Positions 53,979-58,369 of a stretch of 64,000 bases of DNA are shown piece after piece (positions within the stretch are counted from its first letter, which is position 1; every line of letters begins with the position of its first letter). A program made the position numbers and the translations under genes. The stretch comes from Thermomonas haemolytica (GTDB lineage: Bacteria > Pseudomonadota > Gammaproteobacteria > Xanthomonadales > Xanthomonadaceae): contig NZ_SMAP01000004.1 in assembly GCF_004346265.1 (NCBI RefSeq), positions 1 to 64,000 on the forward strand, in the 5' to 3' direction. The notes under the pieces were generated by a model. The model searched no databases and was not told the DNA's origin. It saw only the letters and a list, made by a program, of their open reading frames with translations.

Positions 53979-54953
53979 TTACCCCTCGGCGGCGGCGTCG
54001 CGCGCCTCGTAGGCATTCACGATGCGCGCCACCAGCGGGTGCCGCACCACGTCGCGCGCCTCGAAGAAGGTGAAGCTCACGCCCTCGACCCCGCGCAGCA
54101 CCTCCACCGCGTCCTTCAGGCCGGACTTCTGGTGCTTGGGCAGGTCGATCTGGGTCATGTCGCCGGTGATCACGGCGGTGCTGCCGAAGCCCAGCCGGGT
54201 CAGGAACATCTTCATCTGCTCGATGCTGGTGTTCTGCGCCTCGTCGAGGATCACGAACGCATCGTTCAACGTGCGCCCGCGCATGTACGCCAGCGGCGCG
54301 ATCTCGATGACGTTGCGTTCCAGCAGGCGCGCCACCTTCTCCACGCCCAGCATTTCGTACAGCGCGTCGTACAGCGGGCGCAGGTAGGGATCGACCTTCT
54401 GGGTGAGGTCGCCGGGCAGGAAGCCCAGCTTCTCGCCGGCCTCCACCGCCGGGCGCACCAGCACCACCCGCTGCACGCGCGACTGGTTCAGCGCGTCCAC
54501 CGCCATCGCCACGGCGAGGTAGGTCTTGCCGGTGCCGGCCGGGCCGACGCCGAAATTGATGTCGTGGGTGGCGATCGCCTGCAGGTACTTGCGCTGGTTG
54601 GGCCCGCGCCCGCGCAGGGTGCCGCGCTTCACGCGCACCGCCACGTCCTGCCCGGCATGGCCGGCGGCGGGCGCGGCCTCGTCCGCGAACGCGCCCAGCC
54701 GCAGGTGCACGGCCGGCTCGTCCAGCGCCTCGCCGGCGGTGTCGTCGTACAGCCGGCGCAGGAAGGCCTCGGCGCGCCCGGCGGCGGCGGCATCCTCGGC
54801 GCTCACCCGGAACACGTTGCCGCGGTTGGCGATCTGCACGCCCAGGCGCAGCTCGGCCAGGCGCAGGTGGGCGTCGAACGGGCCGGCCAGGTTGGCCAGG
54901 CGCTCGGCGTCGTCGGGTTCCAGCACGAACTCGCGTTGCGCAGGGATGGTCAT
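53979..54953 (-). CDS. phoH: PhoH family ATPase
   Basis: A 324-residue P-loop protein. Walker A is GPAGTGKTY (about 130-138) and Walker B is [12 protein letters not shown]-like N-terminal region (about 40-100) precedes it. PhoH-type proteins are thought to work with YbeY in RNA handling. It heads the phoH-ybeY-corC run; in many relatives miaB lies directly upstream, but here it is 2 kb further away. Confidence 0.93.
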
Positions 54954-55303
54954 GGCGGGCGCACGCCGCCAGCGGCAGCGTCGAAAACGAGGGGGCGCAA
55001 AGGGTAGCGCGCAGCGCGTAGCCGGGCCAGTGAAGGGGGGCGCGGTTGCGGCGTCGGTGTGTGCACGTCAACGCGATCTGACTACGCCCCGCGCCTGTGA
55101 GCGCCACCGCCGCGACCCGCACGAGGCGGCGATGGCAACGTTGTCCACAATGGATGTGGATTGATTGTCCAAAAACCTGTGGACAACTACGCGGACGCCT
55201 TGCCCGGCAAGGCGCGGCCCTGTGGTGGCGAAAAAAATCGCACCTGCCGGCCAGCGCCGGGCGTTCCGCCGCGCTTGCCTTCTGGGAATCCGTTGCGGCG
55301 CGC
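54954..55303. other. 350-bp gap with a DnaA-box-like cluster
   Basis: No gene is found between phoH and the ACT protein. The notable content is at 55140-55187: four 9-mers close to the DnaA box (TTGTCCACA at 55141, TGTGGATTG at 55155, TTGTCCAAA at 55165, TGTGGACAA at 55178), with a perfect outer inverted repeat GTTGTCCACA/TGTGGACAAC. The rest is GC-rich apart from a run of A at 55231-55237. Confidence 0.6.
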
Positions 55304-55720
55304 CTATCGATGTCCGCCGCCGCCGCGCGCGTCGCGGGCCTGCATCCACGCGTCCGCGATCGCCCGTGCGCCGGCAAGGTCGTCCACCACCAGCACCAGC
55401 TGACCGTGGTGATCGCTGTACTGCACGGCGATGTCGATGCCGGCGTCGCCGAGCAGGCCTGTCAGCAAGCCCAGTTGGCCCGGCGTGTCCTGGTCCAGGC
55501 GCAGCAGTACGGCGGGACGCTCGGCGGCCACGCGCATCCCGTGCGCCTGCAGTGCGTCGCGCACCGGCGCAGCGGCATCGAACAGGAAGTGCGCGACCGC
55601 GCGGCCGCCCACCCGCCACGCGCCGCCACCTTCGATGCTGATGCCGGCCGCGCCCAGCGCCTTGGCCATCGCCGCCAGTGCGCCGGGGCGATCGTCGAGA
55701 TGGATCTCCACGTCCTTCAT
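55304..55720 (-). CDS. Tandem ACT domain protein
   Basis: A 138-residue protein with two ACT-like repeats: VEIHLDDRPGALAAMAKALGAA at the N-terminus and LRLDQDTPGQLGLLTGLLGDAGIDI in the second half. ACT domains bind amino acids and control enzymes; no catalytic domain is attached. It overlaps the OsmC gene by 4 nt and is divergent from the ArsR-type regulator beyond it. Ligand unknown. Confidence 0.78.
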   Translation of the reverse strand: MKDVEIHLDDRPGALAAMAKALGAAGISIEGGGAWRVGGRAVAHFLFDAAAPVRDALQAHGMRVAAERPAVLLRLDQDTPGQLGLLTGLLGDAGIDIAVQYSDHHGQLVLVVDDLAGARAIADAWMQARDARGGGGHR

Positions 55721-56214
55721 CGCAGCGCCTCCGCCGTCGCCTCGCCGTGCACGATCGTCGCCTCGCAGCGCACCGCCACCGCGCAGCTGTTGGCGATGAA
55801 GCACTGCGCGTGCGCCTGTGCGTGCAGCGCGTGCGCACGGGCCGCATCGCTGTCCGCGGCAATGGTCACCCGCGGCGCCAGCGTCACCTCGCGAAAGCGC
55901 CCGCCGCGGCCGGGATGCAGCTCCAGCCAACCTTGCGCCTGGTCGTCGTAGGCCAGGACCCGGATGCCGGCATGCGCGCACAGCGCCAGGTAGGTGAGCA
56001 TGTGGCAGGCGGCGAGGGCGCCGACGAACAGGTCTTCCGGGTTGTGCAGCGCCGGGTCGCCGCGGAACGCCGGATCGGCGCTGCCCGCCAGCGCCGCTTT
56101 GCCTGGAACCTGCAGCGTGTAGTCGCGGCCGTAGCCTGTGTAGTCGGCGGTGCCGTTGCCGCGGTTGCCGGTCCAGTGCAGTTGCGAAGCGTAGTGGTGC
56201 AGCGTGTTGGCCAT
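55717..56214 (-). CDS. OsmC family peroxiredoxin-like protein
   Basis: A 165-residue OsmC/Ohr-fold protein. Both conserved Cys of the active site are present: ALAACHMLTYLALC around 77-90 and HAQCFIANSC around 136-145. Such proteins reduce organic hydroperoxides. It is divergent from an ArsR-type regulator gene 71 bp away and is coupled to the ACT gene. Control by that regulator is likely but not shown. Confidence 0.88.
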   Translation of the reverse strand: MANTLHHYASQLHWTGNRGNGTADYTGYGRDYTLQVPGKAALAGSADPAFRGDPALHNPEDLFVGALAACHMLTYLALCAHAGIRVLAYDDQAQGWLELHPGRGGRFREVTLAPRVTIAADSDAARAHALHAQAHAQCFIANSCAVAVRCEATIVHGEATAEALR

Positions 56215-56262
56215 GTGCCTGCCTCGTGTGGGAAGCGGGCACGGTAGGCGCCAGCGCGGCGT

Positions 56263-56288
56263 CATGCTTCGTCTAGAATCGAAGCATG
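56263..56288 (+). promoter_or_regulatory. Operator and promoter of the ArsR-type gene, overlapping its start codon
   Basis: A perfect 9-bp inverted repeat CATGCTTCG (56263-56271) / CGAAGCATG (56280-56288) with an 8-bp spacer. The spacer holds TAGAAT (56274-56279), a -10 element, and the right arm contains the start codon ATG (56286-56288). A regulator bound here would block both transcription start and translation start, which fits tight autoregulation. Confidence 0.72.
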
Positions 56289-56948
56289 AGCGAAGCCACA
56301 CCGCTGTCCCGTGTCGCCTTCCTGCTGGGCGACGCCGCGCGCAGCCGCATGTTGGCGGCGTTGATGAGCGGGCAGGCGCGCACCGCCACGGAACTGGCCC
56401 TGGACGGCGGCGTGGCGCCGTCCACCGCCAGCCAACATCTGACGCAACTGGTCGAGGCCGGCCTGCTCGCGGTGGTGCGCCAAGGCCGGCACCGCTATTT
56501 CCGCCTCGCCGATGCGCAGGTTGCCGCGGCAGTCGAGGCGATGATGGGGCTCGTACCGCCGCAGACCCGGCGGGTCGGCCCGGCGGATTCCGGCTTGCGC
56601 CGCGCGCGGGTGTGCTACGACCACCTTGCCGGCGAACTGGCGATCCGCTGGCGCCAGCAGATGGAGGCGCGCGGGCACCTGCTGTGCAGTGACGGCATGG
56701 CGCTGAGCGCGTCCGGCACGGCCTGGTGTACGGCGATCGGCATCGACGTGGCGGCGCTGCGTGCGTCGCGCCGGCCGGTGTGCCGGCCGTGCCTGGACTG
56801 GAGCGAGCGCCAAGACCATGTCGCCGGTGCGCTGGGCGGCGCCTTGCTTCGCTATCTGCTCGACACCGGCCTGGCACGGCGCGTGCCGGATTCGCGGGTG
56901 GTGCAGATCGGCCCGCGCGGCGAGCGCTTCCTCAGCGCGCTCGACTAG
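56286..56948 (+). CDS. ArsR family transcriptional regulator
   Basis: A 220-residue regulator. The winged helix-turn-helix is at about 10-85 (MLAALMSGQARTATELA, then STASQHLTQLVEAGLL). The C-terminal half carries several Cys: ARVCYDHLAG, HLLCSD, WCTAIG and VCRPCLDWSERQDH, which could sense metal or redox state. The likely targets are its own gene and the divergent osmC-ACT pair. A palindrome overlaps its start codon; the -10 TAGAAT ends 6 nt before the ATG, so the mRNA is probably leaderless. Confidence 0.87.
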   Translation: MSEATPLSRVAFLLGDAARSRMLAALMSGQARTATELALDGGVAPSTASQHLTQLVEAGLLAVVRQGRHRYFRLADAQVAAAVEAMMGLVPPQTRRVGPADSGLRRARVCYDHLAGELAIRWRQQMEARGHLLCSDGMALSASGTAWCTAIGIDVAALRASRRPVCRPCLDWSERQDHVAGALGGALLRYLLDTGLARRVPDSRVVQIGPRGERFLSALD

Positions 56949-56965
56949 CGCGCGCCCGCCGCCGC

Positions 56966-58369
56966 TCAGGCCGCGGCGTCGTCCTCGGCCAGGTGCAAGC
57001 GGCCGCGCAGCGAATTGCTCAGCGCCTCGGTGATCGTCACGTCCACGAACTGGCCGATGAGCCGCTTCGGCGCCGGGAAATTCACCGAGCGCATGTTCTC
57101 GGTCTTGCCGGTCAGCTCGTCCGGGTTCTTCTTGGACGGGCCTTCCACCAGCACGGTCTGCACGCTGCCCACCATCGCCCGCGAGATGCCCGCCGCGTGC
57201 GCGGTGATGTGCTTCTGCAGGCGGTCCAGCCGGGCGTGCTTCTCCTCGCTGCTGGTGGTGTCCGGAAGGTCCGCGGCCGGGGTGCCGGGGCGACGCGAAT
57301 AAATGAAGGAGAAGCTCTGGTCGAAGCCCACGTCCTCGATCAGCTTCATGGTCTTCTCGAAATCGGCGTCCGTCTCGCCGGGGAAGCCGACGATGAAGTC
57401 CGAGCTGATCGAGATGTCCGGGCGCACCGCGCGCAGCTTGCGGATCTTCTGCTTGAACTCCAGCGCGGTGTAGCCGCGTTTCATCGCGGCCAGGATGCGG
57501 TCGCTGCCGGACTGCACCGGCAGGTGCAGGTAGTTGGCCAGCTTCGGTACGTCGCGGTAGGCCTCGATCAGCGAGTCGCTGAACTCCAGCGGGTGCGAGG
57601 TGGTGAAGCGGATGCGGCCGATGCCGTCGATCTCGGCGATCGCGCGGATCAGCAGCGCAAGATCGGCGGTGGCGCCGTCCTCGCCCAGCGCGCCGCGGTA
57701 GGCATTCACGTTCTGCCCCAGCAGGTTGACCTCGCGCACCCCCTGCGCGGCCAGTTCCGCCACCTCGGTCAGCACCGACTCGAACGGGCGGCTGATTTCC
57801 TCGCCGCGGGTGTAGGGCACCACGCAGTAGGTGCAGTACTTGGAGCAGCCTTCCATGATCGAGACGAAGGCGGTGGGGCCTTCCGCGCGCGGCTCCGGCA
57901 GGCGGTCGAACTTCTCGATCTCCGGGAAGCTGATGTCCACCTGCGGCGCGTCCTGCTCGCGGCGGGCGCGGATCAATTCCGGCAGCCGGTGCAGGGTCTG
58001 CGGGCCGAACACCAGGTCCACGTAGGGCGCGCGCTCCAGGATCGCCGCGCCTTCCTGGCTGGCCACGCAGCCGCCGACGCCGATGATGACCGGGCGGCCG
58101 CCCTGCTTGAGCTGCTTCCAGCGGCCCAGCTGGCTGAACACCTTTTCCTGCGCTTTTTCGCGGATCGAGCAGGTGTTGATCAGGATCACGTCGGCTTCGT
58201 CGGCGTTCGTGGTCAGCTGCATGCCTTCCGCGGCGTGCAGCACGTCGGCCATCCGCGACGAGTCGTACTCGTTCATCTGGCAGCCGTGGGTCTGGATGAA
58301 CAGCTTCGGGCCGCTGCCGGCGGCGGGTGCGGCAGGCGGCGGGGCGGGCAGGGGGTGCAGATCGGTCAT
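56966..58369 (-). CDS. miaB: tRNA-2-methylthio-N6-dimethylallyladenosine synthase MiaB
   Basis: A 467-residue radical-SAM methylthiotransferase. The N-terminal UPF0004 domain ([35 protein letters not shown]) binds one iron-sulfur cluster, CSKYCTYC binds the radical-SAM cluster, and a TRAM domain closes the protein. It modifies A37 of tRNAs reading codons that start with U. A Pro/Ala stretch extends the N-terminus by about 20 residues. Confidence 0.96.

Follow-up and report, generated by a model that had tools for sequence, protein, structure and literature searches.

A dispersed DnaA-box element of Lysobacteraceae with similarity to the DARS of Escherichia coli

Introduction

Upstream of phoH in Thermomonas haemolytica, several 9-mers that resemble DnaA boxes lie crowded within 46 bp. 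What does such a cluster do, if it does not belong to the origin of replication? Clusters of DnaA boxes outside oriC are known from E. coli, where datA is one, with its boxes arranged around an IHF site and a stimulating effect on the hydrolysis of DnaA-bound ATP, and from Bacillus subtilis, and the window element is like them in this respect. Further candidates are the DnaA-reactivating elements referred to as DARS, which stimulate ADP release by DnaA and increase the amount of ATP-DnaA. Their features include an inverted box I, equal spacing and a head-to-head pair of DnaA molecules on boxes I and II (Katayama et al., PMC5742627, in the part cited here); a definition is also given in PMC8682772 (likewise cited in part). 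The core of E. coli DARS1 reads TTATCCACT-5-TGTGGATAA-3-TGTGTATTA, that of DARS2 TTATTCACC-5-TGTGGATAG-3-TGTGAAGAA. DARS2 additionally depends on Fis and IHF sites at a fixed distance (PMC4245941, in part).

In the sections cited, DARS are described as conserved in gammaproteobacteria near E. coli, with one source adding betaproteobacteria (PMC4245941, PMC8682772, PMC5742627). The titles and abstract openings of the open-licence PMC literature yielded none on DARS in Lysobacteraceae or on DARS adjoining priA, which leaves their absence from print unproven; DARS1 and priA are both mentioned in reviews (e.g. PMC13220808, in part). In the following, we describe the element around the cluster, its relatives and its genomic distribution, and weigh the functions that it may have.

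Sequence models and samples

The window is the whole stretch of T. haemolytica DNA analysed here, 64 kb in length. Two sequence models were used. R1 represents the modules with a shifted third box and was built from 41 aligned units: 166 pattern matches in loci gave 69 with an inner box and 47 distinct candidates, six of which were dropped for want of the layout or the flank. R2 was built from 15 canonical elements, i.e. those with the box order III-3-II-5-I, with E. coli excluded and six of the 15 from outside Lysobacteraceae. R1 was run on 29 Lysobacteraceae genomes, namely that of T. haemolytica itself and 28 picked as single-contig. PriA was identified by similarity, and by Pfam in T. haemolytica.

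Results

The cluster in the window

A sequence-only reading of the locus had listed four DnaA-box-like 9-mers, and all four are found, between 55141 and 55186. The outer two are part of a perfect 10-bp inverted repeat, as it had stated (GTTGTCCACA at 55140-55149 and TGTGGACAAC at 55178-55187). Its argument that four near-matches are unlikely by chance is borne out by Markov sequences of 64 kb, none of 60 containing a comparable cluster, defined as at least four boxes (at most two mismatches, at least two of them exact) within 48 bp. The density of TTNTCCACA with at most one mismatch is ordinary across the window (19 against 13.7 ± 3.8, with 19 attained in 10 of 100 shuffles), and both exact matches in the window fall inside the cluster. 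Twenty exact matches occur in the whole genome (2.59 Mb), where exact-box pairs within 46 bp number four against an expected 0.007.

In line with what had been said, the cluster lies away from oriC as far as seen: dnaA is located on contig C2 at 157672, and the window on contig C4. We rejected an oriC or a second origin on these grounds, and because none of 29 canonical loci tested contained dnaA. Exact DnaA boxes occur near both ends of dnaA itself (C2, 157578 and 158976).

Read on the minus strand, the element has box III first, box II after a gap of 14 bp and the inverted box I after another 5 bp, and it is longer than the reported cluster, extending to a palindrome beyond the boxes (Table 1). 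Three of the four 9-mers belong to this conserved architecture, whereas TTGTCCAAA is spacer and corresponds to no conserved box in the family alignment, so that the doubt raised beforehand about the conservation of the inner boxes applies to one of the two only. In many family members, the same spacer carries the half-box TTGTCC on the opposite strand. R1 matches the window copy at 55137-55239 on the minus strand with 68.4 bits, the copy being one of its 41 training units, while R2, which is independent of it, gives 20.2 bits (E 5e-4 in 1.03 Mb).

Table 1. Features of the window element, of the insert that carries it and of the canonical elements beside priA. Box invariance over the 41 aligned units is partly by construction, the units having been chosen via a box pattern with up to two mismatches.
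Feature	Position	Strand	Basis or remark
Whole element, box I to palindrome, ~100 bp	55141..55242	- (read towards phoH)	R1 and R2 matches
Predicted DnaA box I (TTGTCCACA)	55141..55149	+	opposite to boxes II and III; TGTGGA invariant in 41 aligned units
Predicted DnaA box II (TGTGGATTG on plus, CAATCCACA on minus)	55155..55163	-	convergent with box I, 5 bp apart; CACA invariant in 41 units
Spacer between boxes II and III, 14 bp	55164..55177	-	alignment; contains TTGTCCAAA (55165-55173, plus), not conserved
Predicted DnaA box III (TGTGGACAA on plus, TTGTCCACA on minus)	55178..55186	-	CCACA invariant in 41 units
Inverted repeat GCCTTGC-CCG-GCAAGGC	55197..55213		conserved in part of the family; 61.7% of cells paired in 41 units
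Palindrome, family form TGGYSA-N5-TSRCCA, imperfect here	55226..55242	-	centre 71 bp from box II start
phoH (PhoH family)	53979..54953	-	Pfam PF02562; start ~190 bp from box I
Insert in the phoH-miaB interval, 2 kb, contains the element	54939..56963		absent from Thermomonas sp. S9
ACT-domain gene in insert	55304..55723	-	Pfam PF01842
OsmC-like gene in insert	55717..56214	-	Pfam PF02566
ArsR-type regulator gene in insert	56286..56948	+	Pfam PF12840/PF01022
miaB-like gene, other side of insert	56966..58369	-	Pfam UPF0004, Radical_SAM, TRAM
Canonical priA element of T. haemolytica	G000:C9:93031-93132 (L017)		
Other Lysobacteraceae priA loci with canonical element	L231, L236, L242, L245, L248, L253, L255, L218-L223		

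The arms of the palindrome vary mostly as half-sites (TGGCGA, TGGTGA, TGGTCA), and a protein dimer site therefore fits it better than a hairpin. That the palindrome and the GC-rich repeat form hairpins was considered and rejected, covariation in the 41 units lying above nearly all shuffles in three of five measures and not in the other two. Rfam searches of four loci returned just two matches, both sub-threshold and outside the element.

Origin of the window copy

The window copy is of horizontal origin. Thermomonas sp. S9 has miaB next to phoH, whereas 2025 bp separate the matching parts in the window. This insert is 96.4% identical, over 2018 of the 2025 bases, to G030, a genome of another genus of the family (g7), in which the same gene order is native; phoH and miaB, by contrast, are closer to S9 (96.7 and 94.5%) than to G030 (85.3 and 89.2%). 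Conservation in sister species had been proposed as a check, and it is not seen within the genus, the 46-bp cluster being found in none of the 24 other genomes at up to three mismatches, but homologous elements are dispersed in Lysobacteraceae. Since the insert matches G030, its flanks match S9 and the cluster is absent from those 24 genomes, the segment with its three genes and the element probably entered recently from another genus by homologous recombination. Our guess is that the donor genus was Xanthomonas-like; the module sequences of G041, a genome of genus g18, resemble those of named Xanthomonas loci.

A dispersed family of modules

The cluster is a real conserved element, and it belongs to a family that is dispersed in Lysobacteraceae. 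Two further units of the same layout stand in tandem on contig C1 of T. haemolytica (151169-151352), with the same 37 bp between box starts that the window element shows. If up to two mismatches are allowed, 87 of 198 family genomes contain the layout TTNTCCACA-N28-TGTGGANAA, with as many as 11 occurrences in one genome; the reversed pattern occurs 0-2 times per genome, and at two mismatches some of the matches are due to chance. The 41 units align nearly without gaps and are rigidly spaced. In 36 of them, TGGnnA-N5-TnnCCA (at most one mismatch) is found at -69 to -72 from box II, a motif that was absent from the selection pattern.

Among the matches listed, strong R1 copies (at least 50 bits) are present in 16 of the 29 Lysobacteraceae genomes, often in tandem, and no match of that strength in the remaining 13. 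Copies hold orthologous positions across genera. A scan of 114 genomes of the class (67 without match) detected strong copies in only two, T. haemolytica and G034, both of the same family, with 38 bits as the best score elsewhere. A phage search with one canonical element gave no match. As a side observation, two 6-Mb genomes of genus g16 contain tandem arrays of weaker units, about five to ten copies each among the matches listed (G191:C1:5589770-5590625 and 5647076-5648442; G158:C1:4160080-4162516).

The proposed link to phoH turned out to be mostly incidental. Homologous elements occur at about 12 unrelated loci with different neighbouring genes, and the most widespread of these loci lies between convergent genes in T. 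haemolytica. When both models were run on 1.03 Mb, comprising 80 named phoH loci and the window, matches at E<0.03 were confined to the window and to three of four loci that bear the name Xanthomonas, all four of these matches being in the training set of R1 and none in that of R2. The fourth Xanthomonas-named locus, from a metagenome bin, matched neither model, and the element is absent from 77 of the 80 named phoH loci, including all nine named Thermomonas.

Comparison with E. coli DARS

Boxes I and II oppose each other at a distance of 5 bp in the window (55141-55163), as they do in the E. coli DARS. Box III has the orientation of box II, as in DARS, but stands 14 bp from it rather than 3 bp, both in the window and across the aligned modules (23 bp start to start, against 12 in E. 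coli), which displaces it outward by 11 bp, i.e. one helical turn. Because of this spacing, we do not file the element as a DARS.

The similarity to DARS nevertheless exceeds chance at the sequence level. In the E. coli comparison, which comprised five stretches totalling 22.5 kb, the best match of R1 is DARS1 (E 4e-4); the DARS2 core was not found by R1 in these stretches. R2 scores DARS1 with 34.2 and DARS2 with 20.1 bits, compared with 15.0 for the interval in which we take datA to lie, 12.6 for the oriC edge and 9.1 for the stretch upstream of dnaA. Both models place DARS1 above datA and oriC.

DARS1, which is located between bioD and uvrB, is accordingly the closest counterpart in layout: like the window element, it is intergenic and about 100 bp long, and its boxes I and II converge at a distance of 5 bp with box III on the strand of box II. 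One half of the palindrome, CGCCA, is present at the corresponding position when DARS1 is aligned to either model. DARS1 differs in the position of box III, and T. haemolytica, unlike E. coli with its DARS1, has three shifted units at two loci in addition to a canonical one beside priA. DARS2, between rppH and mutH, shares the geometry of boxes I and II, but differs in the spacing of box III and in having Fis and IHF sites spread over a region of ~400 bp. As regards the fixed-distance Fis and IHF sites of DARS2, the modules have a palindrome at a fixed distance, and an exact Fis site is seen there, at -70/-71, in only 5 of 41. The intergenic location between oriC and terC and a position conserved among relatives, also typical of DARS, hold for the family, the window copy being a recent arrival.

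The DnaA of T. haemolytica is 55.9% identical to that of E. coli over 440 residues. It retains K178, K243, D269, R281, R285, L290, R334, R399, R401, P423 and R432-T435, among them the box-reading residues that were compared as well as L290 and D269, on which DARS2 and DARS1 of E. coli depend; R227 is changed to Q, V211 to F and E21 to D.

A canonical element beside priA

The canonical element adjoins priA in all 14 Lysobacteraceae priA loci examined, which were fetched via R1 hits and do not constitute a census. In each of them boxes I and II are perfect, box III shows CACA at a spacing of 3 bp, and the palindrome, with no more than one mismatch, is placed at -70 or -71. The canonical element shares the box I-II pair and the palindrome distance with the window element, the palindrome being ~71 bp from box II in both kinds, but it has the III-3-II spacing of E. 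coli and a weak box III (..CACA).

At a threshold of E<=0.001 per genome, R2 has matches in 233 of 274 gammaproteobacterial genomes, usually one to three and never more than eight in a genome, and none in the other 41. Of 29 loci fetched from this class-wide search, priA adjoins the element in 14 and dnaA in none. Where the fetched stretch lacks priA, canonical elements recur beside a few other genes, to judge by names read off the sequence: kinase-like and small exported-protein genes (L275, L301), nuclease-like genes (L287, L294, L297) and a UvrB-like gene (L299).

Outside Lysobacteraceae, the exact Fis consensus (GnnYAnnnnnTRnnC, as printed in PMC8682772, cited in part) is centred at -70/-71 in 15 of 26 elements, a count that is biased upward because these elements were picked by R2, whose model includes the palindrome. 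Without the five that trained R2, the consensus is found there in 12 of 21, against one occurrence elsewhere in the same 21. The fixed offset of the palindrome is a property of the sequences, despite the selection by R2.

Chromosomal position and orientation

The matches listed include 46 strong sites from 14 complete genomes. Their ori-ter fraction averages 0.77, and 45 of the 46 lie at 0.5 or beyond; as many are orthologous, they represent about ten independent loci. The terminus was placed by dif-like sites for 9 of 16 genomes and by the midpoint for 7. Hits down to ~31 bits from 16 of the 29 genomes were counted, each tandem group taking the strand of its first listed unit; the count excludes the draft genome of T. 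haemolytica, G150 (dnaA not among the matches listed), genomes whose hits were few or weak, and hits of the priA type.

Counted by site, orientation appears polar: 42 of the 46 listed sites face the origin (41 when the stronger unit of G062 is taken), the orientation switches sides close to the dif-like sites detected in 10 of 22 genomes, and it is unanimous within each orthologous locus. Such a count is not independent, however, since symmetric inversions preserve orientation within a locus. Counted by orthologous locus, eight point towards ori and four towards ter (two-sided p 0.39); this count was extended with draft genomes, took fork direction from GC skew and used 61 of 62 regions (L325 had no scorable module), single linkage merging loci A and D. 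Given this split between loci, we claim no polarity, and a Ter-like polarity with the replication fork is not supported. The sign of the GC skew matched fork direction in 31 of 31 calibration windows (20 kb, from complete genomes within L306-L359), which makes it useful for draft contigs.

Discussion

Titration, reactivation and gene regulation had all been offered as functions of the cluster, and the second of these is partly supported: we favour it because boxes I and II match the E. coli DARS exactly and because both models score DARS1 above datA and oriC. On balance, we read the window cluster as a DARS-like DnaA-reactivating element with a shifted third box, probably a DARS variant that works in the same way. 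Several observations speak against this reading: boxes II and III are 14 bp apart, R1 misses the DARS2 core, few modules have an exact Fis site at the palindrome (5 of 41), and matches are lacking in 13 of the 29 Lysobacteraceae genomes (R1, at least 50 bits) and in 41 of the 274 genomes of the class (R2). In the mechanism that we infer, boxes I and II, being convergent and 5 bp apart, would bring two ADP-DnaA molecules into head-to-head contact, upon which these would lose their ADP and depart as apo-DnaA, which would then take up ATP. A third protomer would come from box III, which its outward shift by a full helical turn leaves on the same face of the helix. Assembly may be aided by a protein that bends the DNA at the palindrome, either Fis or its replacement in Lysobacteraceae. 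The amount of ATP-DnaA made before the next initiation would be set by the several copies that a genome carries, most of them in the terminus half.

The main rival is a datA-like role, in which the elements would be sinks that delay initiation by titrating DnaA, or sites that speed up ATP hydrolysis. With three strong boxes in every unit, and with units repeated in tandem and, among the matches listed, in arrays of as many as about ten, the elements would bind many DnaA molecules, and DnaA-box clusters outside oriC are described as restraining initiation in B. subtilis (PMC13220808, PMC5742627, in the parts cited). Yet a sink should need neither a rigidly linked palindrome nor an exact convergent pair 5 bp apart, and we would expect it nearer the origin than the late-replicating half in which 45 of the 46 listed strong copies reside; with the datA interval also well below both DARS in the R2 scores (15 bits against 34 and 20), we regard this role as unlikely. 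Control of phoH or other neighbours by DnaA bound at the element, suggested by its position ~190 bp upstream of phoH, by tandem units upstream of phoH in three Xanthomonas loci and by the canonical element adjoining priA, seems more doubtful still, given the units between convergent genes at the most widespread locus, the differing neighbours at the ~12 loci and the many phoH loci without the element.

An alternative in which the inverted repeats serve a different regulator as operators, or make up a small mobile repeat, and are no DnaA sites at all would fit the 10-bp repeat formed by the outer boxes and the dispersed, tandem copies; we consider it quite improbable in view of boxes that are DnaA 9-mers, rigid spacing, orthologous positions across genera and models that find DARS1. 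The least credible alternative is a polar, terminus-linked element, i.e. a fork trap or a segregation or termination signal that makes use of DnaA boxes: it could draw on the origin-pointing sites, their switch near dif-like sites and the unanimity within loci, but is already weakened by the non-independence of these sites and the split of eight to four between loci.

Beyond the window element, we tentatively propose, with rather less confidence than in the DARS-like reading itself, a class-wide DARS-type reactivation system, whose canonical copy, accompanied by a Fis-type site at a distance of 71 bp, often lies by priA. Within Lysobacteraceae, this system may have expanded into a multi-copy network of shifted-box modules in the terminus half, exchanged between genera, which would time initiation by the copy number of late-replicating sites. 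If the elements work as proposed, DnaA reactivation is older and wider than described, and box III with its one-turn shift offers a natural experiment in the spacing tolerance of the DnaA complex. Lysobacteraceae would then control initiation via many reactivation sites instead of two, and the logic of copy number and position in DARS would become directly testable.
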